Source of the DNA: Aureliella helgolandensis
GTDB lineage: Bacteria > Planctomycetota > Planctomycetia > Pirellulales > Pirellulaceae
Length of the DNA stretch: 64,000 nt
NCBI RefSeq assembly: GCF_007752135.1
Contig: NZ_CP036298.1
Coordinates: 2,232,001-2,296,000 of the forward strand
Reading direction: 5' to 3'
A program made the position numbers and the translations under genes. Below the pieces are notes generated by a model, which saw only the letters and a list, made by a program, of their open reading frames with translations, did not search any database and was not told the origin of the DNA. This document shows positions 15,922-26,277 of the stretch, piece by piece (position 1 is the first letter of the stretch; every line of letters begins with the position of its first letter).

Positions 15922-16491
15922 TCATATTAAATTCTTCCTGTTTACTACGTCCAATCGAACGTTTGCTGCCGAATACGAAACATTGAATACTTGCATCAAT
16001 AGACGCGCTGACAATGGACGTCTCTTCTTAAGGATTTTCAATGCGCATGCTGGCATCATGTATGCGGCGGTGATTGCGTTTGCTTGCCATTCTGGATCGC
16101 GAAAAGTTGGTATCGAATCCCTTCTGTTTAGCCGAAGTGTGGATCCGCTCTCTAGTACATTTCGGATCTGACTTGCGTGTTGCCACACATGTGCGCATTC
16201 ATGGATCACTGTAAATCTGGATCTCGGATCTCCTCGGCAAGCAAGCGTGTAGGTGGCATCAGACACTTCAACTCGATGGTCTGGCCAGGTTCGGCCTTCT
16301 ACGCCATGTGGTAGGGTGCTGGTCACCGATGTGTCGAATTTGTATATGTCGTGTAGCAGCTCCCAGGTTTCAATCACGTCTACCGGTCCTGGTGCCAGGA
16401 GCAGGTCAGGAAAGTGGCGTTCAAGCTGACGCAACGAAATCTCTTCGATTTCGCGATAGCTCAAAGGTTCCACTTGGGGCACATAAGTCAT
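15922..16491 (-). CDS. ImmA/IrrE-family zinc metallopeptidase
   Basis: A 189-residue protein with the zinc-peptidase motif HECAH at residues 97-101 within FTVIHECAHVWQH, followed by a helical region with an acidic third-ligand candidate. ImmA-type peptidases cleave or inactivate the XRE repressor encoded next to them, triggering excision or stress response. The ATG overlaps the repressor's stop by four bases (ATGA), indicating coupled translation. The order repressor-then-protease and the length fit the family. Confidence 0.88.
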   Translation of the reverse strand: MTYVPQVEPLSYREIEEISLRQLERHFPDLLLAPGPVDVIETWELLHDIYKFDTSVTSTLPHGVEGRTWPDHRVEVSDATYTLACRGDPRSRFTVIHECAHVWQHASQIRNVLESGSTLRLNRRDSIPTFRDPEWQANAITAAYMMPACALKILKKRRPLSARLLMQVFNVSYSAANVRLDVVNRKNLI

Positions 16492-16868
16492 TCATCCTTC
16501 CTTTCGTTTCTTTTTGTTGCGATAAATCTCTCAACTTGCTCCCATACATCATCGGGGATTTCGTCCTGCTCGTAGCTGCGAGCAAGCGAAGCTAAAACGT
16601 TGGTGGATGTTGAACTCTTGCCTTTGGTACTTACGTTGAGGTGTCGCACAGATTGAGCTGCCAGGAGCAAAAACTCTTCCAACCGGTCCTCACATTTTAA
16701 AGCTTGCAACCATTTGCGAATGGTCGTTTCGTTAGGGGGATTCTTCGTACCGCGTTCGACCTGAGAAACGTATGCTACCGATACGCCAGCTGCCTCCGCC
16801 AGCTTCAGGAGGTTATCCTTGCCTCGCCTACGAGCTTCCCGCAGTGCCAATCCAAATTTGGTCTGCAT
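16488..16868 (-). CDS. XRE-family phage repressor
   Basis: A 126-residue regulator. Residues about 5-60 form a Cro/CI-type helix-turn-helix (KLAEAAGVSVAYVSQVERGTK). The C-terminal half is an acidic/Ser-rich linker and a helix, without a LexA-type self-cleavage domain. That fits a repressor controlled by the separate ImmA peptidase encoded immediately downstream. Tandem 20-bp repeats about 70-100 bases upstream of its start are the likely operators for autoregulation. Confidence 0.88.
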   Translation of the reverse strand: MQTKFGLALREARRRGKDNLLKLAEAAGVSVAYVSQVERGTKNPPNETTIRKWLQALKCEDRLEEFLLLAAQSVRHLNVSTKGKSSTSTNVLASLARSYEQDEIPDDVWEQVERFIATKRNERKDE

Positions 16869-17008: not shown

Positions 17009-19348
17009 CTAAGCGGCGCGTTTGGCTTGGGCCTCGGCCCGCAGCTGCTGCAGGCTCTTCTTGGTGCGTTTGGCGGCGGGAGATTTGGAGTAGCGTTCTT
17101 TGTTGGGCATGCAGCCGGCCATCAATCCCAGCGTGCCGGCCATGACCAGGCAGTCTCCCCAGTGGTTGTCGCGGCCGGGCAACAACATCCATTCGAGCAG
17201 CTTCCGTCCACGGCCCTCGGTCTCGATCGGATATTCTGCAGATGCTTGATCGGCAAACATGCGGTGAGCGGCAACTGAGGCCTGGAACAACGTCCAATCT
17301 CCCCCCGCCCCCTGCGGAATCAAGAACCGTCGGGCAATCATCGTTTTGAGAATATTGGTGTCGCTGATCACGTGCCGTGGTGCCTTGGTTCCTTTGGTCG
17401 ATGGAATGAACCATTCCTCTCCGACTCGCTCCCCCTGTTTTTTCTTCCGCATATCGAGTGGTGTTTGCTTAGCCGTGATCCCCTTGCCGTGGAATGGAAT
17501 TGGACGATTGGGGTTCTGCCGGCAAACGTTGTAGACGCTCTTCTTGGAGTCACCGTAGTTGGCGTCGATAATCGTGTGATCGATCGACATCTCTGCGCCA
17601 TCGTCACGCACATAGGAGCGTGCGTAGAGATCACGCATGAGATTGTTGATCCCCGCAAACCAGGCACCCTGAATGTCTGGGATGTTGGTTTTCTGTCTCA
17701 GCGAGATCTGCAATTGGCCGAGTGTCCAGTAGGCACCCAGCGGTTGCTCTGGGTAGGTTCCGTAGTCGATGATCCACCCGGTGAAGTCGTCGGCCAACGC
17801 CAACTGCAACCAATACAAGACATCCTGTTGAACATCGATCGCCGTGAAGATGTGATTTGCGCCGGTTGGGATGTCCCCGCGCGCGTAGCCATTGGCACGC
17901 TGGACGATGTCATCACTCGACGGAAACGCCACTTGGCCAATGGCGGTATTGCTAACCTGTGGATTGTTCTGATACTCGGCCTCGAATGTGGTGGGGTTCG
18001 CCAGTCGCAGGTTTTGAGCGGACTGCAGTGCCGAGAGCTCGTGATCCAACCTCCGTTGTGCCCAGGGTACGACGGCACCAATATCCATGATCTTGCGATG
18101 ATCACGGTAAAGCTTTGTTGCGCGTGGCAGCAACGTCTGACCGGCCCGGAGATCAACCTCCCGCAACTCTGCGTACTCTTCCCATTTGGCGGTGTTGGTG
18201 GGCCAACGTTCGACCAGCGAGAATGTGCGGCCTTGCCAATGTGGATTGAGAGTGCGATCGAGTAACCTGTCAGCAAGGTCCCCTTTCTGAACGATCGTTA
18301 CCGTGGACAGGCCTGCAATGCGTTTGCCGGGTCCCGCTAGGCCCATCACTGCACCGTTGAGCAATGTTTCGCGTCGTTCCACCTGAGCGACTTTCTTGGC
18401 CGATTGGTCGGTCTGCAAATCGTCCCCCAGGAACGCATCAGGTCGGAGTGATTTGCCGTCCGAACGTTGGTGCAACATCCCGCGAATTCGCCCCAGCAGT
18501 CCCACCGCCTGCAGAACTGTCCCGCCTGTGACTCGACCATCTTTGTGGGTGACCGTTGGCAGGACGATCTTCTTGCGTCCGGACCATGAGATCAACGTCG
18601 GTTCGCCACCGACCATTTGCCCCTTGCCTCGCTGCGGGATTCCTTCGAGCTGCCAGATGGGATGGCAGATCTCCGGGAAGTCGGCGAGCAAGAGTGGATT
18701 GGTTTCGAGCTGGACTTTGACGATGTCCATCATCTCGTAAGCCGCTTCGGCCGCCGCCCCCAGCAGCACGAGATAGGACCGCCAACCGTAGAGCATCGCA
18801 AGCACCCCACAATGGATGCACAGCGATGTTTTCCCGCTCCCCCGTGGCATCCCCAGCGCATACAGGCCACCGAATCGCAGGACCTGGTTCAGAGCGTCAA
18901 TCACCTCCACATGCTGGCTTGACCACCCCAGAGCAAACACATCCGGGAAATAGGTCTCCAGTGCCAACTGCAGATCCTCACCGCAGTCGTGCCGACGCTG
19001 CGGATCGGCCACTGGGGGCAATGGTCCGATCTCGCGTTGACCGGACGACTGGAATCTAGCTCGAGCTGCAGCCCGTTCGCGATGTTTGGTGTAAGCCGCT
19101 TTCTCTTTGGCCTTGGGCGACAACTTGTCTGGCGACGCCGGCTTGGCAATAGTGACCGGCTTGCCAGGTTTTACTGCAGGCGGTTTACTGGGATTGGATT
19201 TGGCCGCTGACTTGGCTTTTGCAACTGGCTTCGGCTTAGCCTTTTTCGCAGGGGCTACCTTTGGCGCAGTCTTGCCCGGACTGCGTTTGGCAGCAGCTCG
19301 CGGTGGAGTGCGTTTTGCGGGAGCTGGCTTGGTAGTTTTCTTCGCCAT
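17009..19348 (-). CDS. Phage terminase large subunit
   Basis: About 779 residues from ATG 19348 (MAKKTTK). The ATPase shows a Walker A at residues about 166-174 (GMPRGSGKT) and a Walker B-like FLGDDLQ. The C-terminal half carries the nuclease region (FTAIDVQQDVLYWLQLA with a candidate metal-binding Asp; HTIIDANYGDSKKSVY). The layout resembles GpA-type terminases, the motor that packages DNA through the portal. Unusually the first ~85 residues are Lys/Ala/Pro-rich, like a histone H1 tail. The small subunit is not recognised but may be one of the two genes just upstream. Confidence 0.9.
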   Translation of the reverse strand: MAKKTTKPAPAKRTPPRAAAKRSPGKTAPKVAPAKKAKPKPVAKAKSAAKSNPSKPPAVKPGKPVTIAKPASPDKLSPKAKEKAAYTKHRERAAARARFQSSGQREIGPLPPVADPQRRHDCGEDLQLALETYFPDVFALGWSSQHVEVIDALNQVLRFGGLYALGMPRGSGKTSLCIHCGVLAMLYGWRSYLVLLGAAAEAAYEMMDIVKVQLETNPLLLADFPEICHPIWQLEGIPQRGKGQMVGGEPTLISWSGRKKIVLPTVTHKDGRVTGGTVLQAVGLLGRIRGMLHQRSDGKSLRPDAFLGDDLQTDQSAKKVAQVERRETLLNGAVMGLAGPGKRIAGLSTVTIVQKGDLADRLLDRTLNPHWQGRTFSLVERWPTNTAKWEEYAELREVDLRAGQTLLPRATKLYRDHRKIMDIGAVVPWAQRRLDHELSALQSAQNLRLANPTTFEAEYQNNPQVSNTAIGQVAFPSSDDIVQRANGYARGDIPTGANHIFTAIDVQQDVLYWLQLALADDFTGWIIDYGTYPEQPLGAYWTLGQLQISLRQKTNIPDIQGAWFAGINNLMRDLYARSYVRDDGAEMSIDHTIIDANYGDSKKSVYNVCRQNPNRPIPFHGKGITAKQTPLDMRKKKQGERVGEEWFIPSTKGTKAPRHVISDTNILKTMIARRFLIPQGAGGDWTLFQASVAAHRMFADQASAEYPIETEGRGRKLLEWMLLPGRDNHWGDCLVMAGTLGLMAGCMPNKERYSKSPAAKRTKKSLQQLRAEAQAKRAA

Positions 19349-19358
19349 AGATTGCCGG

Positions 19359-19658
19359 CTAGCCGAGCTGCATATCACGAGGGATTGCGTACTGTGCCCG
19401 CAGAGCTGCCCAATCGATCGGGCGTTCCACCTTCCGCAATGGCCTCTCCGCTCCGCAACTGCAGCGTGTGGGGCCGTAGTACGTCAACAGCTCTCGGGAG
19501 CTCACCGCCCGATCGAGCTCGCCACAGTGCTTGCACGGGCGCCGGGCCGTGGGAGGTTGTGTCCCTCTCGGCCAACGGTAGCGAGGTGGCAACGGCGGTT
19601 TGGATTTTCGCTTGCGTAGTTTGGTCGACGGCTTAGGCGACTTCATTAGGCAGATCAT
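19359..19658 (-). CDS. Small zinc-ribbon protein upstream of terminase
   Basis: A basic protein of up to 99 residues; an ATG four codons in (19646) is an equal candidate start. After a Lys/Pro-rich N-terminus it has CKHCGELDRAVSSRELL and then RCSCGAERPLRK, a C-x2-C ... C-x-C set suited to one zinc ion. It overlaps the end of the 169-residue gene and ends ten bases before the terminase start. Position directly before the large terminase suggests a packaging accessory or small terminase role, but this is inference. Confidence 0.6.
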   Translation of the reverse strand: MICLMKSPKPSTKLRKRKSKPPLPPRYRWPRGTQPPTARRPCKHCGELDRAVSSRELLTYYGPTRCSCGAERPLRKVERPIDWAALRAQYAIPRDMQLG

Positions 19659-20142
19659 CGGCGTCTCGCAATTGGGCGTGTCCGGCGGTTACCAGGGCCG
19701 TGGAGAGTTGTTGCCAACCCGCCAGCATGCACAAACTGTTCACTTCTGTCGGGCGATCATCACTCGCCAAATACAGCTCCCCATCGCAGATAGCACCTGG
19801 CACCATCGATTGCAGCCAATCACGCCGGCATGGAATGGGAATGTGAGCAATCACAGCGGTCGCATCCCGTAGATACCGATCTGTCCACCTCCGAGAGATC
19901 GGGCACGGTCCCAGAGCCATCGACGTGTGTCCGTCTGCGGCCTGTGGATCGAATAGATGCAACGCAGACGGTGGAGGATCGCCGCGCCGGAGATGCGTCC
20001 GCGATGCAACGGGCAGCCGAATCGTGAGATCATCCCCCGAGTCGCCACCACTGGCGTTGATCAGCTGAATTGATATCAATTCAGCCGAGTACACATGCCG
20101 GATCCGTACCGGCGTAACCAACCCCATCAAGAATCTTTTCAT
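19633..20142 (-). CDS. Hypothetical phage protein, intact copy of a duplicated gene start
   Basis: A 169-residue protein I do not recognise. The first 25 codons (from FLMGLVTPVRIRHVYSAELI) are nearly identical to a truncated frame at 22999-23148, so this gene's 5' end is duplicated about 3 kb away. The middle contains SRTHLRRGDPPPSALHLF, and the C-terminal half a hydrophobic helix pair (NSLCMLAGWQQLSTALVTAG). It overlaps the downstream zinc-ribbon gene. Function unknown; it lies at the junction of the replication/accessory and packaging modules. Confidence 0.6.
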   Translation of the reverse strand: MKRFLMGLVTPVRIRHVYSAELISIQLINASGGDSGDDLTIRLPVASRTHLRRGDPPPSALHLFDPQAADGHTSMALGPCPISRRWTDRYLRDATAVIAHIPIPCRRDWLQSMVPGAICDGELYLASDDRPTEVNSLCMLAGWQQLSTALVTAGHAQLRDADDLPNEVA

Positions 20143-20180
20143 CCACCCGACAGTAGCAAAACTATCGAGAAAGCACTACC
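20063..20180. repeat. 118-bp direct repeat, left copy
   Basis: Gapless match to 23069-23186 with about 99 of 118 identical bases by my count (near 84%). It covers the ribosome binding region and first codons of the 169-residue gene. Together with the right copy it brackets the SEFIR and SWIM genes. Confidence 0.85.
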
Positions 20181-20256
20181 CGGAGCCACCGAATCCAAGT
20201 CTAGCAAATGCTTGAAGGATGGGATTAACAGTCCAAACATATTACGTCGCATCCCA

Positions 20257-21732
20257 CTAATCTCGGGTTGCGATGAACTCGTAGCCCATCATTTGAGCTG
20301 GTGAATGCCAATTGCGAAAACGAAAACTACGTTCGGCATACCTATGCATCAATGCGTCTAATTCTTCTTTAGATTGAATGCCTAGTATCTTAAGGATTTG
20401 GTTGAAATATCGCGTTGACTGCGATCGTGCAAATACCTCAAAAACCATATTGCCCGCAGTTGTCGAGGAACCGTCTAAAGTTACAGGATACCATCTAGGC
20501 CAATGTCTGTTTTCAGGTAAACGATCTAGTTCACCACGCAAGTATAGAACAAAATCTGCCTGCATGAGTTTGGGGAACTCAACGGCTGATTCGTGTGACC
20601 TTTTTTCCAACAAATCGGAATGGGGGTGAAGGGAGGAGGCTAAATGGTTCTCGACTGCCTTTGCTACAAATCCAATAGGTTGATACATGTACTCAAACGA
20701 AACCATGCCGTTCCAACTATCAACTCTGAGGTTTGGAACATAGTATTGCGTCTGTAGTAATGTGCAGACATCCGTAAATCGTTGGCGACCTAGCAAAATA
20801 GCAATCGTGTATAAGAACAGTTCATGAACAATGAAGCGATAATTATCGAAGTCAGTGTCCAGATGACTCGCCACGGTTTGCGAGCTGTCTAAGAAGGGCA
20901 AAAGATCTTCGAAAAAGCGATGCAACAGTTCAGAAGATTGCCCGTCTTCCAAGTGCATGGCCATCGTCGAAATCAAGCCGATCGCTTCGTTGCGATACGG
21001 CAAGAAAGTCTCGACATTCTTGGACGTCCGATCCGTGTTGGCTGATTGCTCGAGGCGATTGCAATCATCGGCATCAAGTCGGAAGCGTTCAAGATTCTCT
21101 GAAACGGCCGAGAAATATTCTGCGACGTGCCCACGCCAGTTAGCTAGGGCTCCTCGAACCGACTCTGTTGCTCTGCGAGCTTTACTAGTGGTCCCAAGTG
21201 CAATAGCGTCCTCCTTAAGATACTCAGGCATTTTTCCCAACTGAGGTTTCTTGTAGAGTGGCTTGTCAAATATCCATCGCATAAGTTGTTCAAAGTTTTC
21301 CGCGTGACTCGTCGGAGTGGACAGGTCAATGTAGATTCTAGAACTGTAATACGCAGGCAAGAAGGGCTTCCCCTCTGGATTCTTTTCGAATACTACTGCG
21401 ACAAACTTGTCCTGCCGGCTTTTCCTATATACCTCTGGTGATATTATTTGTGTTTCTGTCCCCACTCCACCTGTTCGTTCGTTTGCCTTTCTCACATACT
21501 CATGATCGCAAACCAGTATTACTTTCCTGATTGCTTCATCACTTACCATCGTTTCCATGAAATGATTGGCATCGTGTCCCTCTCGCAAGTCCCACTTGTC
21601 TAAAACAACATCAACGCCATTTTCAACTAGATCCGTCGATAGCTCAAGTACTCGAGTTGCGTGCTGTTTTGTTGTCCAACTGTATGACATGAAACATTTG
21701 GGAGCGGGAGTATTCATAGATAGCTTCGGCAT
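20257..21732 (-). CDS. SEFIR/TIR-domain protein, probable antiphage defence
   Basis: A 491-residue protein. Residues about 12-150 match the SEFIR pattern: CFMSYSW, VLELSTDLVENGVDVVLDKWDL, HFMETMVSDEAIRKVILVCDHEY, then GGVGTETQIISPEVY. SEFIR/TIR domains are signalling or NAD-degrading modules in several bacterial defence systems, including bSEFIR. The rest is a helical C-terminal region I cannot assign, possibly the sensor. An ATG five codons in (21717) is another possible start. Base composition is clearly AT-richer than phage neighbours, and the gene lies within a direct-repeat-bounded island. Domain call is good; defence role follows from the family and context. Confidence 0.8.
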   Translation of the reverse strand: MPKLSMNTPAPKCFMSYSWTTKQHATRVLELSTDLVENGVDVVLDKWDLREGHDANHFMETMVSDEAIRKVILVCDHEYVRKANERTGGVGTETQIISPEVYRKSRQDKFVAVVFEKNPEGKPFLPAYYSSRIYIDLSTPTSHAENFEQLMRWIFDKPLYKKPQLGKMPEYLKEDAIALGTTSKARRATESVRGALANWRGHVAEYFSAVSENLERFRLDADDCNRLEQSANTDRTSKNVETFLPYRNEAIGLISTMAMHLEDGQSSELLHRFFEDLLPFLDSSQTVASHLDTDFDNYRFIVHELFLYTIAILLGRQRFTDVCTLLQTQYYVPNLRVDSWNGMVSFEYMYQPIGFVAKAVENHLASSLHPHSDLLEKRSHESAVEFPKLMQADFVLYLRGELDRLPENRHWPRWYPVTLDGSSTTAGNMVFEVFARSQSTRYFNQILKILGIQSKEELDALMHRYAERSFRFRNWHSPAQMMGYEFIATRD

Positions 21733-21849
21733 CTAATGGTAAAGATGAGAGAGGAGGGCAAGAACTGTTCGGCGATTTTAGGCAGTCAGTTGGTAAGGCT
21801 GGGAGGTCTCTAAATCCATCATGCGCGACAAGATGTTTTCAAATTAGAA

Positions 21850-22632
21850 TCAGCGAGTCGACAGTCTCCGAATAGCGTTTGCTAGTGAGGCAGGTTCAGC
21901 TGGCTCTTTCCCGTAGGACCATCGGTGCTCGTCGATACTGAAGCCGTACTTCTCGCTAACCCCATCGATTCGAGCATATACATTGCCCCATTCAGGACTG
22001 GCTGAGGAAACGAGGTAATTGCAAGTTGAAACTTCAACTACACACCACTCTTGTTCAGGATGGGGACGGAAGCCGGCTTCAAGGAATGGCTCGAGCCAAC
22101 TCGGCCAGCCACTTGACGGCCTAATCTCTGCGTAGCCCTGCATGATATGCTTGCAACATCGAGAAATGTGCCCTACAGGAAGATGTTGGCGGTAAGATTG
22201 AAAATCAGGACAACTGCATGAAGGTGCCGTCAAGTCCAGGTCGTACGTTAGATCTGGTTCCCTAAAAGAGGCTACTTGAAGTTTTGTTGGGATTGCAATG
22301 AGTCTGGGCGCCCCATCATCGAAGCACCCTATTGCATCGTCGAGTTTAACACCAAAGGGTTTGACTCCTGACAGGGCATGCTCCCGTGCCCATTCTCGCC
22401 GGACCTTTTGAATAAGTCTGCCTACCTGAATTGCTTCGGCTTCATCTATCTTGCCATCAGCAAATACATCTTTCAACAACGGCAAGAATTGACTAGCCGG
22501 CCAAGTCTTGCGGCCGTCCATGTTGTCGTTAAGCCATTTGGCCAATCTAACAATTTCCCTGTGAGTTAGCTCACCATCTTCAGCGACCTCTTCGATGAGG
22601 GTCAAGTATTCGTGTGTGTAGTCAGTGTTCAT
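21850..22632 (-). CDS. SWIM-type zinc-finger protein with TerB-like N-terminus
   Basis: A 260-residue protein. Residues about 10-85 contain two similar acidic helical repeats (EEVAEDGELTHREIVRLAKWL and LKDVFADGKIDEAEAIQVGRL), like the TerB/EF-hand-like modules found beside BRCT or nuclease domains. Residues about 120-165 hold a SWIM-like finger, CSCPDFQS...CCKHIMQGY (C-x-C ... C-x-H), preceded by VASFREPDLTYDLDL. SWIM fingers bind DNA or proteins. The gene lies immediately upstream of the SEFIR gene in the same direction, with a 117-base gap, within the repeat-bounded island, so a functional pairing is plausible but unproven. Confidence 0.7.
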   Translation of the reverse strand: MNTDYTHEYLTLIEEVAEDGELTHREIVRLAKWLNDNMDGRKTWPASQFLPLLKDVFADGKIDEAEAIQVGRLIQKVRREWAREHALSGVKPFGVKLDDAIGCFDDGAPRLIAIPTKLQVASFREPDLTYDLDLTAPSCSCPDFQSYRQHLPVGHISRCCKHIMQGYAEIRPSSGWPSWLEPFLEAGFRPHPEQEWCVVEVSTCNYLVSSASPEWGNVYARIDGVSEKYGFSIDEHRWSYGKEPAEPASLANAIRRLSTR

Positions 22633-22998
22633 TAAATTGGTATTCAGTACGAGAGTGGAAAGTCCGGATGCAAGCGCTCAGTCGGAAACCTACAGAACAC
22701 TGTCGCATTATTATAGGCGGATGGAGCGCGTGCAACTTAGCGGTAGTGGAATCTCCGCGAGTCTTGTTTCTCGGGAGTCTAGTCCGCTGGGCAAGGTGGG
22801 GTGGGCTAAACCAACGACTGGGGAAAATTCAAGAACCGCACGTTGAAAGAAGGTCTCCGCAATAATTGCTGTGCCATTTCGCACAAAGCTAGAGGTCAAT
22901 TTGCGAGCGATTGGAGGGGCCAGCAGCGAACGGTCGGAGCTGTGTGACTGCAGTGAGGGGGAGCCGATGCGTAGCTGAGATTGGTGGCTCGCGTCTAC
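22633..22998. other. Intergenic segment of the SEFIR/SWIM island
   Basis: No supportable gene in 366 bases. It probably holds the promoter for the SWIM-SEFIR pair. TTAGCGGTAGTGG at 22738-22750 recurs at 43440-43452 in front of the ECF sigma gene. No clear hairpin-plus-U terminator. Confidence 0.4.
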
Positions 22999-23148
22999 TC
23001 AGCAAGGCCGGCGTAACGGTAGGCGAAGTGGAGATTGTCCCTCCGCCCCGTCCCTACTCCCATCGAGCAGCTCGATTGAAATCAATTCAGCCGAGTAAAC
23101 ATGCCGGATTCGCACCGGCGTAACCAACCCCATCAAGAATTTGCTCAT
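22999..23148 (-). pseudogene. Truncated duplicate of the 169-residue phage gene
   Basis: The frame starts at ATG 23148 behind CCAGGAG and reads MSKFLMGLVTPVRIRHVYS and then AELISIELLDGSR before losing similarity and stopping after 49 codons (TGA 23001-22999). The intact copy starts MKRFLMGLVTPVRIRHVYS at 20142. Similarity is confined to the first ~28 codons and the leader. It looks like a gene start left behind when the SWIM/SEFIR cassette was joined at this point, with the intact gene retained or replaced at the other side. Confidence 0.7.
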
Positions 23149-23186
23149 CTCCTGGACGGTAGCAAAGCAATTGACAAAACACTACC
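23069..23186. repeat. 118-bp direct repeat, right copy
   Basis: Pairs with 20063-20180 in the same orientation without gaps. The two copies start 3006 bases apart and bracket the SEFIR and SWIM genes. Divergence (about 16%) suggests the copies came from related phages rather than a very recent duplication. Confidence 0.85.
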
Positions 23187-23380
23187 GCCAGGAGGGCGAA
23201 TGATAAGTGTTGAATTGGAACAAGCTTGCTTTCGTGCAGCCGAACTTTACTGCGTCAAAACTCGTGTAACACAAATACATGCATCGTGCATGCACAAGCT
23301 ACAATTCAAATTCCACACATCTCAAAAATGGGGTATTCAATTTCAGTAAGCTGTTAGCTGGCAGCTCCGCTGTTATGCGA

Positions 23381-23731
23381 TCATTCCGACCTGAGCCCGG
23401 CGTGCAGGCGGCTAACTGTGCCGTCATCTAGAAAAACGACTTCCACGTTATGAGTACCAAGCTCGGGCAATGTATCCACACCCGGGCGAGGCTTTAGTGA
23501 TGTAGCTGTAGCTGGCAGCCGATATATTCCAGACTGCGTTTGAAAATAAGAATAGTCTTTGTCACTACCAACCCAGCTGAAGGATTCCATGCCCTTCGTT
23601 ACTTCTCTAAGCTGGGGAAGGGTCAAGTGCGTAGCGTTCTCCAGTGTAGTACCGCCAGTGAGTTTGGGTTTACATCCTGCAATCAAAATAGCAGAACATA
23701 CGATCGAAAAAACAAGCATAGCGCGCAGCAT
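23381..23731 (-). CDS. Small lipoprotein
   Basis: A protein of about 116 residues from ATG 23731. It has a lipoprotein signal (MLRAMLVFSIVCSAILIAGC) with lipobox LIAGC, so it should be acylated and anchored in a membrane facing the periplasm. The mature part (LPQLREVTKGMESFSWVGSDKDYSYFQTQ, then NVEVVFLDDGTVSRLHAG) has no family I recognise. It is upstream of the repeat-bounded island and downstream of the Hint gene, in the same accessory block. A longer ORF start at 23782 would destroy the signal peptide and is rejected. Confidence 0.65.
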   Translation of the reverse strand: MLRAMLVFSIVCSAILIAGCKPKLTGGTTLENATHLTLPQLREVTKGMESFSWVGSDKDYSYFQTQSGIYRLPATATSLKPRPGVDTLPELGTHNVEVVFLDDGTVSRLHAGLRSE

Positions 23732-23924
23732 GATTTCTAAGTCCCTAAGCGATTGAGTTTCAGCGGCTGTTGGTAGGCGCAACGCGCGCCAACCAGAATG
23801 ACTTCAGGAGCATTATATCTCCTGAAGTGAAATTGTGTGTGAGCGACAGGTTTGTCTGATCCAAACTGTCAAGCACGGTTGTTACCAGAGTTTTACATCA
23901 GCGCTGTTTTGCGAAAAACGGGAT

Positions 23925-24902
23925 TTACTTTGTTGGAACGACTTTCACATACCTTTGACTAGGCGATTTTTTCAGGAACCCTGGCTCCGACGGATTCATT
24001 GAACATGAATCGGCCACCAAGATTGAAAAATCCCAGTTGCTCTCACCCACGAAAATACTACTTTTTCCATCCACAGAAACACTGTAGACGTCTGCCTCGT
24101 CGCCAATGCGCAATGAGTCAACCGTAACCCACTTGTCCGTATGGCTTCGCAAAGAGTCACCAGCAACCAGCTCAATCGCAGGTATCCACCCCTTGTCCTT
24201 TTCGTAAAAAGGGTGCTGCTGCGTGGTCTGAATGACATGACCGCCGGCAACAACGTTAAATAATCTCGCGCGACTGACCTCTACTTTCTTGATTTCCTGC
24301 ACTGAAGGAGTCGTCGCAATTTTGTCGCGCGGTGAAGAATAGATGAGATCGCCGACAGAAAGATGCTCAATTGGTTTGAATCCTTCTGGGGTCAACAATT
24401 GAGTCTCTGCAGAAAAACATTCCCCACCGGGATTCGGTATCCAATACCAACTACAAAGTGCTCCATAACTGTTCCAATGGTAGTATCCGCCGCTGTAATT
24501 CCACTCTCCATACTCAAACCACACGTAGACCCCCTGGAGAGGATATAGACCAGGCCCCTTCAGCGGCACATTTACCACTTCAGAACCAGATGTCGAACCT
24601 GGGTTTGAAGTGGGGTAACCCTCGCCTACTCCTGAACCGGGAGAGTAATATGTTGTTGGGCTCGTGTAATAGACAGGCGCATAACAACCGACAACTGTAT
24701 AACCATCCACTCCTGAAAAGGAGCCACCAGACCATGTCACTTCCTTTCCGTTTCCTGGATCGCATATGATGCTGCCTCCGGTTACGACAGCACTCTGAGC
24801 CTGGACGTTTGGCGTTAAGATTGCAATCGCTCCCAGCAAGGTGGTGCACCGCAATACTTCCAGAAGACATCGGTTCGAACAGATTCTTACATCGAATTTC
24901 AT
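23925..24902 (-). CDS. Secreted Hint (hedgehog/intein) domain protein
   Basis: A 325-residue protein with an N-terminal signal-like segment (TLLGAIAILTPNVQAQ). A Tyr/Gly/Ser/Pro-rich region (about 36-155) follows, then a Hint domain (about 160-300). The Hint starts at Cys162 in ECFSAETQLLTPEGF and has GDLIYSS, the block-B histidine in TTQQHPFYEKDKGW (His230), and the final strand VYSVSVDGKSSIFVGES. Such domains self-cleave and release the C-terminal part of exported toxins or adhesins. The usual final 'HN' is absent, the sequence reading VADSC, and only about 25 residues follow. So it may cleave N-terminally only or be a structural relic. No toxin domain is present. Confidence 0.75.
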   Translation of the reverse strand: MKFDVRICSNRCLLEVLRCTTLLGAIAILTPNVQAQSAVVTGGSIICDPGNGKEVTWSGGSFSGVDGYTVVGCYAPVYYTSPTTYYSPGSGVGEGYPTSNPGSTSGSEVVNVPLKGPGLYPLQGVYVWFEYGEWNYSGGYYHWNSYGALCSWYWIPNPGGECFSAETQLLTPEGFKPIEHLSVGDLIYSSPRDKIATTPSVQEIKKVEVSRARLFNVVAGGHVIQTTQQHPFYEKDKGWIPAIELVAGDSLRSHTDKWVTVDSLRIGDEADVYSVSVDGKSSIFVGESNWDFSILVADSCSMNPSEPGFLKKSPSQRYVKVVPTK

Positions 24903-25359
24903 TCAACATTCTCCACTTGAAAGACTAGGATTGAAGCTACTTACATCGAGGGGTAGCATATCGCCCGCAGTTGGGAAGTCAAGAACTTTTTGACTTGCCA
25001 AATCTGGAAATAAGAGAATTTGTCGGCAGAAAAATTGGCCTACGGGTGGTCCAGTCGGTTGCTTTGGATTCGTCAGCGAAAGTTGTGTATATACCGGGAG
25101 GAAATCGATTAGTAATGGAGTGACTTGATACCTATTGTCTTGGATGGGAAATCGCCACAAATAGCGAGGATTAAGGGCAAAGGACATGAATAAGTTGTAA
25201 TATCTACGGGCGGTAAAGCGCGTTCTGAGGCACGCAAATGAGGGAACGAACAAACAAGTTAATGCATCCGAAAAATGCAAATTCGAAAGTTGGCATCAAA
25301 GATCGGCAAGCGAAGGGGGTTACTTGAGATCATCGGAGTAGATTACGCTTGCGTAATCT
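24903..25359. other. Intergenic region upstream of the Hint gene
   Basis: 457 bases, AT-rich, without a gene I can support. A 125-codon minus-strand frame here lacks a ribosome site and protein-like composition. The region probably contains the promoter of the Hint/lipoprotein genes and the end of the replication operon. Confidence 0.4.
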
Positions 25360-26277
25360 TCATGCCTGAGCGGACTTTGTAAAAGACAGTTTTTCGAATC
25401 TCGCGATCGCATGCTGCAGCTGCTCGTGAGACCACCCCTCACCGCGACCGTACCGAATGAGATCCGCCCGCTTGCGTTCCTCGTCGCCACTGAGCTTGGC
25501 GAGTTTCAATTTGGGTTCGCCTCCGCCCAACTGAGCCGAGTCGAACGATTTGGGGATCGCCAGCCAGTTGTAGAGGGTCCCTCCGCGTCGAGATTCTGCC
25601 GGCATGGCACGAAACGCAGCTACACGATGTTCGATTGCCTCCGGAGTTAGGCCGTGCGAGAGAGCCCGTCTGACCGCCTCCTCGGCTCTTCCAACGCCCA
25701 TCTGAGAAACAACAACAACAATTCGCTGGACTGAGGGATCGAGTGATTCGCTGCCCCCCGAGTGGTTTGGCTCTGTTGTTGTTGTTTCTTGTTTAACGTT
25801 CCCTGTTAATGTTGTTGTTTGTAGACCCGGGGTGGGTCCATCAGTGGGTCTATCAGCGGGTCTATCAGTGGGTCTATCAGTGGGTCTATCAGTGGGTCTA
25901 TCAGTGGGTCTATCAGTGGGTCTATCACTCCGGCGAGATCGTCCAGCAATGGCCGCTTCAATCTCTGAATAAACGATCCTGTATTCGATGCCATGGGACT
26001 CCCGCAACTCTGCTAGGAGCCCAATCTCCCGTAGGGCACGAATGCAGCGTTTGGCGTGTGTGCGATCGCAATCCGCACTCTCAGCGATCGATGCCTGAGA
26101 AGCAAAACAGATCGATCCGAAATCCTCGATCACTCTCAGGATGGCCTTCAGGTCCCGCGCCTTCATACGGCGCCGAGTGCCACCCTCCATGATCGCTACG
26201 TTGGGGCACGTGAAGTCCTGCAGCAAGCGACGTCGATACCCACGATCGCTGAAATCCAATTCCTGTTGATTGCTCAT
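25360..26277 (-). CDS. Winged-helix phage replication protein with internal repeats
   Basis: A 305-residue protein. Residues about 34-104 form a winged helix (KAILRVIEDFGSICFASQASI, then CDRTHAKRCIRALREIGLLAE). Residues 118-149 are eight tandem DRPT-type tetrapeptides, and the C-terminal part is helical (GRAEEAVRRALSHGLTPEAIEHR, then GGTLYNWLAIPKS). A DNA-binding N-terminus, repeat-bearing middle and separate C-terminal domain is the plan of lambda O-type initiators, whose gene contains the replication origin. The neighbours (exonuclease, hypothetical genes) suit a replication module. Initiator role is inferred from architecture; a regulatory role is the alternative. Confidence 0.65.
   Translation of the reverse strand: MSNQQELDFSDRGYRRRLLQDFTCPNVAIMEGGTRRRMKARDLKAILRVIEDFGSICFASQASIAESADCDRTHAKRCIRALREIGLLAELRESHGIEYRIVYSEIEAAIAGRSRRSDRPTDRPTDRPTDRPTDRPTDRPADRPTDGPTPGLQTTTLTGNVKQETTTTEPNHSGGSESLDPSVQRIVVVVSQMGVGRAEEAVRRALSHGLTPEAIEHRVAAFRAMPAESRRGGTLYNWLAIPKSFDSAQLGGGEPKLKLAKLSGDEERKRADLIRYGRGEGWSHEQLQHAIARFEKLSFTKSAQA
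25780..25927. repeat. Eight 12-bp iteron-like repeats with adjoining AT-rich tract
   Basis: GTGGGTCTATCA is repeated head-to-tail eight times at 25832-25927; six units match exactly, and the first and third differ by one base each. On one side (about 25780-25831) is an AT-rich, GTTGTT-rich tract, a reasonable unwinding element. Iterons plus an AT-rich tract inside a DNA-binding protein gene are the hallmarks of a lambda-type origin. The repeats also encode the DRPT tetrapeptides, so coding slippage without origin function remains possible. Confidence 0.65.

Follow-up and report, generated by a model that had tools for sequence, protein, structure and literature searches.

A bSEFIR gene and an orphan gene bracketed by two copies of a phage gene start in a prophage of Aureliella helgolandensis

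Anti-phage SEFIR proteins are single-gene systems. In the case of phage 21 in icd, the insert reportedly carries a diverged gene end and the target gene is kept intact. In the published passages available, SEFIR proteins are classed as NAD+-depleting (PMC11084316, PMC12322248) and as protective against a narrow set of phages (PMC12322248), and SEFIR domains serve as an outgroup for TIR domains (PMC13142454). The available part of a study of P2-like phages places defence hotspots of 1–5 kb between two conserved genes and makes no mention of SEFIR (PMC9122126). Here, a two-gene cassette is described from a prophage of Aureliella helgolandensis, located in a stretch of 64,000 nucleotides (nt) of the 8.44-Mb genome (NZ_CP036298.1, positions 2,232,001–2,296,000, forward strand), which is called the window and to which positions refer unless given as genome positions. 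The larger cassette gene is, on profile evidence, a member of the known defence family bSEFIR, and both genes are bracketed by direct repeats corresponding to the start of a phage gene. It is probable that the cassette represents defence cargo gained by the prophage through recombination between related phages at this conserved gene start. A literature search over titles and the beginnings of abstracts returned no description of this arrangement of cargo, repeats and gene start. The features concerned are as follows (aa, amino acids).

19633–20142, minus strand: phage gene (169 aa, intact, function unknown) lying upstream of the genes for a 99-aa protein and the terminase large subunit
20034–20180, minus strand: left direct-repeat copy, covering the first codons of the intact 169-aa gene, whose ATG is at 20142, and a stretch upstream of them
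20257–21732, minus strand: bSEFIR gene, 491 aa, with a SEFIR/TIR-like N-terminus and a bSEFIR C-terminal region
21850–22632, minus strand: orphan gene, 260 aa, in which a SWIM-like C-x-C...C-x-H motif can be recognized by eye
22633–23039, no strand assigned: cassette-side DNA from the second gene to the right repeat, without a match of its own elsewhere in the genome
23040–23186, minus strand: right direct-repeat copy, read as the native phage gene start severed by the cassette
23381–23782, minus strand: lipoprotein-like gene (judged by eye; 133 aa in its longest frame) lying upstream of the cassette

The two repeat copies lie in the same orientation and align without gaps, with 79% identity over 147 nt (20034–20180 versus 23040–23186) and 84% over the 122 nt of their strong part (20059–20180 versus 23065–23186), and they bracket two genes, as reported in a preliminary description of this DNA. 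When the left copy was queried against the whole genome, the right copy was found with an E value of 4.6e-31; the only further matches were a pair within a sister prophage remnant and, inside the left copy itself, a self-inverse stretch of 28 nt. Within this genome, the repeat is therefore no widespread element. The left copy covers 28 codons of the 169-aa gene in its strong part and 36 in all. The right copy corresponds to a 49-codon stub (22999–23148), the likeness of which to the phage gene stops near codon 29, and no match to that gene was found past codon 28 (tblastn, E 1.4). The earlier account of the left repeat as the start of an intact phage gene and of the right one as the same start truncated was therefore correct, and an extension of the likeness out to codon 100, which had been entertained, was rejected after the closer tblastn comparison.

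Only two open reading frames (ORFs) longer than 100 aa are present between the repeats, both on the minus strand and described above, and the longest ORF obtained in 300 base shuffles of the cassette interior had 172 aa. The G+C content of the interior is 48.1%, relative to 58.8% in the left flank (17009–20033) and 47.4% in the right 2.1 kb (23187–25300). The cassette had been described as richer in AT than its surroundings, which is true of the contrast with the left side only, the low G+C being common to the interior and the right 2.1 kb.

A site lacking the cassette was identified in the same genome. A decayed sister prophage remnant (genome positions 2,179,682–2,181,288, 71 kb to the left) carries a single repeat copy, and through it the phage gene is linked, with nothing in between, to the upstream gene that the window has on the far side of the cassette. 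Its order on the plus strand is part of the 99-aa gene, which aligns from its start to about its middle, the 169-aa gene, which has lost its start codon and has a stop at codon 133, one repeat copy and, directly upstream of it, the 133-aa gene. Window positions 19510–20180 match the remnant at 88.8% and positions 23031–23851 at 95.6%, and the two matches overlap by the repeat. The window flanks joined at the homologous point, with 3,006 bp removed, aligned with the remnant over 1,336 bp at 93.8% identity with 83 mismatches and 0 gaps, the register difference between window and remnant being exactly 3,006 bp. This gapless alignment with the single-copy remnant indicates that the cassette sits at the gene start and that the left copy re-supplies that start. 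Outside the cassette, identity to the remnant was 470/524 (89.7%) on the gene-body side of the left copy (19510–20033) and 650/665 (97.7%) on the upstream side of the right copy; on the cassette sides it was 22/76 upstream of the left copy, beyond position 20180, and 44/147 downstream of the right copy, both no better than chance. The cassette interior had no blastn match in the 72 kb to the left of the window.

The interval between these conserved phage genes thus exists both with and without the insert, and the claim of an insertion at a conserved phage gene start is upheld by a natural single-copy site. The locus had also been called swappable, which is demonstrated only in part: the two states were found, but no different cargo was seen at this place, since the searches revealed relatives of the 169-aa gene in this genome only. 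Repeated entry of related prophages into this neighbourhood is suggested by a second, further decayed segment of the remnant site, in which part of a terminase, a truncated repeat and a divergent lipoprotein-like gene are preserved.

The left copy, the right copy and the remnant were compared over the 147 repeat positions. All three were identical at 112 positions and all three differed at 1; the left copy was the odd one at 16 (10 in the first 46 and 6 at positions 107–125), the right copy at 14 (9 in the last 21, 3 in the first 46 and 2 between) and the remnant at 4, and a run of 27 positions common to all three followed position 46. A single crossover joining a native to an incoming gene start would account for the odd sites at both ends of the repeat. 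The prophage may be read as a mosaic of related phages, as suggested by the unequal identity of its two sides to the remnant (89.7 versus 97.7%).

The left copy also contains a palindrome.

20065–20084, no strand assigned: 20-nt perfect palindrome inside the left copy, within the phage gene start

This palindrome is matched in the right copy with 3 mismatches, and no further match with up to 3 mismatches was found in the window (0.00 expected). An Rfam scan of the window gave no match except tRNA. The idea that the repeat is a widespread promoter or RNA element was rejected, as it had no Rfam or sigma-70-like match and its genome copies were confined to this locus and the remnant.

The identity of the larger cargo gene was established by several comparisons. 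The 491-aa protein matched the PADLOC bSEFIR profile (PDLC03957) with an E value of 3.9e-111 over residues 5–490 (profile positions 33–385 of 412), so a defence-type gene is indeed present in the cassette. It also matched Pfam SEFIR (56.5 bits against a cut-off of 23, 5e-15), phrog_11745 (7.2e-132) and the solved SEFIR domains 5y8e and 5y8f (1.3e-31 and 6.7e-29, respectively). Among the best 80 of 308 relatives from GTDB contigs, 62 columns were conserved in at least 95% of sequences, and 61 of them are kept here, the exception being position 32 with S for A. The protein is divergent, its identity to these 80 relatives reaching at most 46% in the best segment. The single-gene character of bSEFIR was borne out by the largest neighbour family, which occurred within 3 kb in 4 of the 80 loci. 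SEFIR relatives were found in five phage records, four of which represent two P2-like phages, each recorded twice; in these the relative lies between replication-side genes and the portal gene, and one of the two is annotated as a short piece. The nearest plasmid relative adjoins P2-type portal and terminase genes.

The 260-aa protein is an orphan within all collections searched, as judged by sequence comparison. The SWIM zinc finger attributed to it earlier is visible by eye as a motif, but the Pfam SWIM match (12.2 bits, E 0.14) falls below the cut-off of 19.6 bits, and the TerB-like repeats also ascribed to it were not found in Pfam at E up to 1. Residues 10–73 match the phage family phrog_3989, of unknown function, with E 6.4e-8; beyond this and the weak SWIM match, searches of Pfam, PADLOC, NCBIfam, PHROGs and PDB gave only sub-threshold noise. 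The single-sequence fold had a mean predicted local distance difference test (pLDDT) score of 40.3. No relatives of the gene were present in 391 other genomes of the phylum or among plasmids and phages, and in viral contigs only the same prophage was found. In GTDB contigs, 65 stretches fitted the search pattern and 0 were confirmed, the scan depending on an exact short peptide match.

If the cassette was gained as proposed above, a block of about 3 kb, comprising bSEFIR and one passenger gene, would have entered a temperate phage at the start of the 169-aa gene, just upstream of the terminase, through recombination with a related phage or with other DNA bearing its own diverged version of that start. 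The incoming start would be the left copy, which now heads the intact phage gene, and the native start would be the right copy, left as a stub upstream of the cargo. Because the incoming start heads the phage gene, such an insertion would spare it, and the locus would offer a before-and-after view, within one genome, of a phage that gains a defence gene and keeps the adjoining gene. Recombination between the repeat copies could restore the single-copy state, and the repeats predict that clean loss of the cargo is possible. If expressed from the prophage, bSEFIR would, by analogy with SEFIR proteins that have been tested, respond to another phage and deplete NAD+, which would stop the infected cell and so guard surrounding lysogens.

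Several observations weigh against this reading. No donor carrying SWIM-SEFIR together with a single repeat was found among viral contigs. Sigma-70-like promoters in the region 19500–24000 numbered 0, compared with a mean of 4.5 in shuffles. With 89.7% identity on the left side, the remnant represents a cousin there and not the empty ancestor itself. Finally, the crossover pattern is unclean, with the left-odd patch at positions 107–125 and the 3 right-odd sites in the first 46, so that more than one exchange, or later drift, would be needed.

The repeat pair might instead have arisen through the collapse of head-to-tail tandem prophages, in which the two phages were fused by a deletion with one end in phage B, just past its gene start, and the other in phage A, upstream of SWIM-SEFIR; A would then be the native carrier of the cargo and no unit would have been inserted. 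The remnant site resembles a tandem pair of remnants that has collapsed: one set comprises a terminase piece, a truncated repeat, a divergent lipoprotein-like gene and part of a replication gene, and after it come the 99-aa and 169-aa genes, the repeat and the lipoprotein-like gene. The differing identities of the two window sides (89.7 versus 97.7%) also agree with this origin. However, phage A must already have carried SWIM-SEFIR at the same gene start, which merely moves the insertion to another phage, and no long repeat besides this pair was found in the 17–27 kb part of the window, apart from a 12-bp tandem array, doubled genes beyond that part being unchecked. A tandem collapse is therefore considered unlikely. 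Even less can be said for the repeat as the attachment site of a site-specific cassette, a block moving as a circle with the help of an outside recombinase and restoring the gene start whenever it inserts, as phage 21 reportedly does for icd. Direct repeats as end points, the restored start and the palindrome in the left copy would suit such a unit, but the repeats are long and diverged (84%) and not a short identical core, there was no other filled site among the genome matches, and neither of the two ORFs above 100 aa matched a recombinase in Pfam; as only these two exceed that length between the repeats, no recombinase is encoded there. We regard this origin as very improbable. It was also considered that this phage family might use the gene start upstream of the terminase as a port for recombination, the repeat and palindrome lying by the packaging site and the 260-aa gene acting as a new SEFIR modulator. 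Exchange of defence cargo would then be enabled by the DNA ends cut during packaging, and since each incoming block would bring a fresh gene start, the phage gene would never be lost. A role of packaging cut ends in cargo exchange has been speculated for P2-like phages with hotspots adjoining cos, in the part of that study available (PMC9122126). Taken as a whole, this proposal appears quite improbable, a little less so than a site-specific cassette.

A further alternative concerns the cargo, which the preliminary description had taken for a two-gene SEFIR system with a SWIM partner, the second protein being a putative sensor, regulator or antidote of SEFIR. The two genes are on the same strand, adjacent, 117 bp apart and jointly bracketed. 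To set against this, 87 SEFIR loci were available, namely those of the 80 relatives and loci L023–L029; for L024, L025 and L029 the match is partial or confined to the SEFIR domain, and some flanks are short, the contigs ending there. A relative of the 260-aa gene was found near SEFIR in 0 of the 87 (best E 1.7 in phmmer and 4.4 in tblastn). At one locus (L035), a SWIM-type motif occurs some 5 kb from SEFIR in an ORF that phmmer does not relate to the 260-aa protein. No neighbour family occurred in more than 4 of the 80 SEFIR loci, and the gene lacks relatives in the phylum genomes, plasmids and phages, with none confirmed in GTDB contigs. A two-gene system is accordingly judged highly unlikely, and these results argue against listing a SEFIR-SWIM pair among two-gene defence systems.

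The carrier prophage was followed through its terminase and the 169-aa gene.

17009–19378, minus strand: terminase large subunit of the carrier prophage (phrog_38, 2.3e-25)

The 169-aa protein had no match in Pfam (E up to 1) or PHROG (E up to 0.1), and its gene was absent from the 14 other genomes of the genus and the 195 other genomes of the order, these being overlapping groups; in viral contigs only the same prophage was found. Terminase relatives were present in 39 of 119 genomes of the family, the own genome included, with a best identity of about 42%. Twenty stretches upstream of terminase relatives were compared, 2 belonging to this genome and one having a length of just 5.2 kb; in none did tblastn (1e-3) show a relative of SEFIR, the 260-aa gene, the 169-aa gene or the lipoprotein-like gene. 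Upstream of 18 such terminases there were 59 ORFs of at least 150 aa; ten of these, picked by hand, were scanned against PADLOC, giving 2 methyltransferases and 8 without a match at 1e-3.

Three other features of the window were noted. A helix-turn-helix gene overlaps an M78 peptidase gene at 15922–16868, between the terminase and a SASA esterase-domain gene; the two are weakly like capH (3.3e-7) and capP (9.6e-9), respectively, and may form a second regulatory or defence pair. A 325-aa protein with a pretoxin-Hint domain (2.8e-9) is encoded at 23925–24902, in the same low-G+C block. The 12-bp tandem repeats, at 25820–25939, encode Asp-Arg-Pro-Thr units in a replication-initiation-like protein.

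Variation in defence cargo was also observed in two further prophages of this genome.

Same genome, from genome position 2,388,500: prophage stretch L151, from sister-prophage comparison
Same genome, from genome position 6,821,000: prophage stretch L152, from sister-prophage comparison

These two carry different genes between alike flanks (L151:2305–4482 and L152:2809–5761), the flanks being 92.3% identical across 2.3 kb at one end and 84.6% identical across 0.65 kb at the other; past a second unlike stretch, a further 5.1 kb match at 95.6%. One has an ATPase-like gene (PADLOC PDC-M28C, 3.3e-9) and the other has Shedu (SduA, 2.7e-85) with a DUF4062 gene; in the available part of a recent report, DUF4062 proteins are described as TIR-like NADases in defence (PMC13174449). 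This cargo lies at a different place from the SEFIR cassette and has no flanking repeats, and it shows that prophages of this host vary in defence cargo at another place too.

Compared with elements of the phage 21/icd type, the locus described here is alike in an insert that re-supplies a gene end; it differs in that the 5' end is concerned, the target lies inside a phage and the insert has no integrase. The hotspots of P2-like phages, as far as the available account goes (PMC9122126), are similar in being small cargo loci between conserved phage genes near the terminase, and SEFIR relatives occur in P2-like phages too. In contrast to those hotspots, another phage family is involved here, the cargo is bracketed by a duplicated gene start, and only filled and empty states were seen. 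With bSEFIR itself (PDLC03957; phrog_11745) the larger cargo gene shares a near full-length match, the conserved columns and the phage setting, whereas it differs from its relatives in being divergent, in lying beside an orphan gene and in being bracketed by repeats. The SEFIR cassette adds a member to a known defence family, accompanied by a clean comparison with an empty site.

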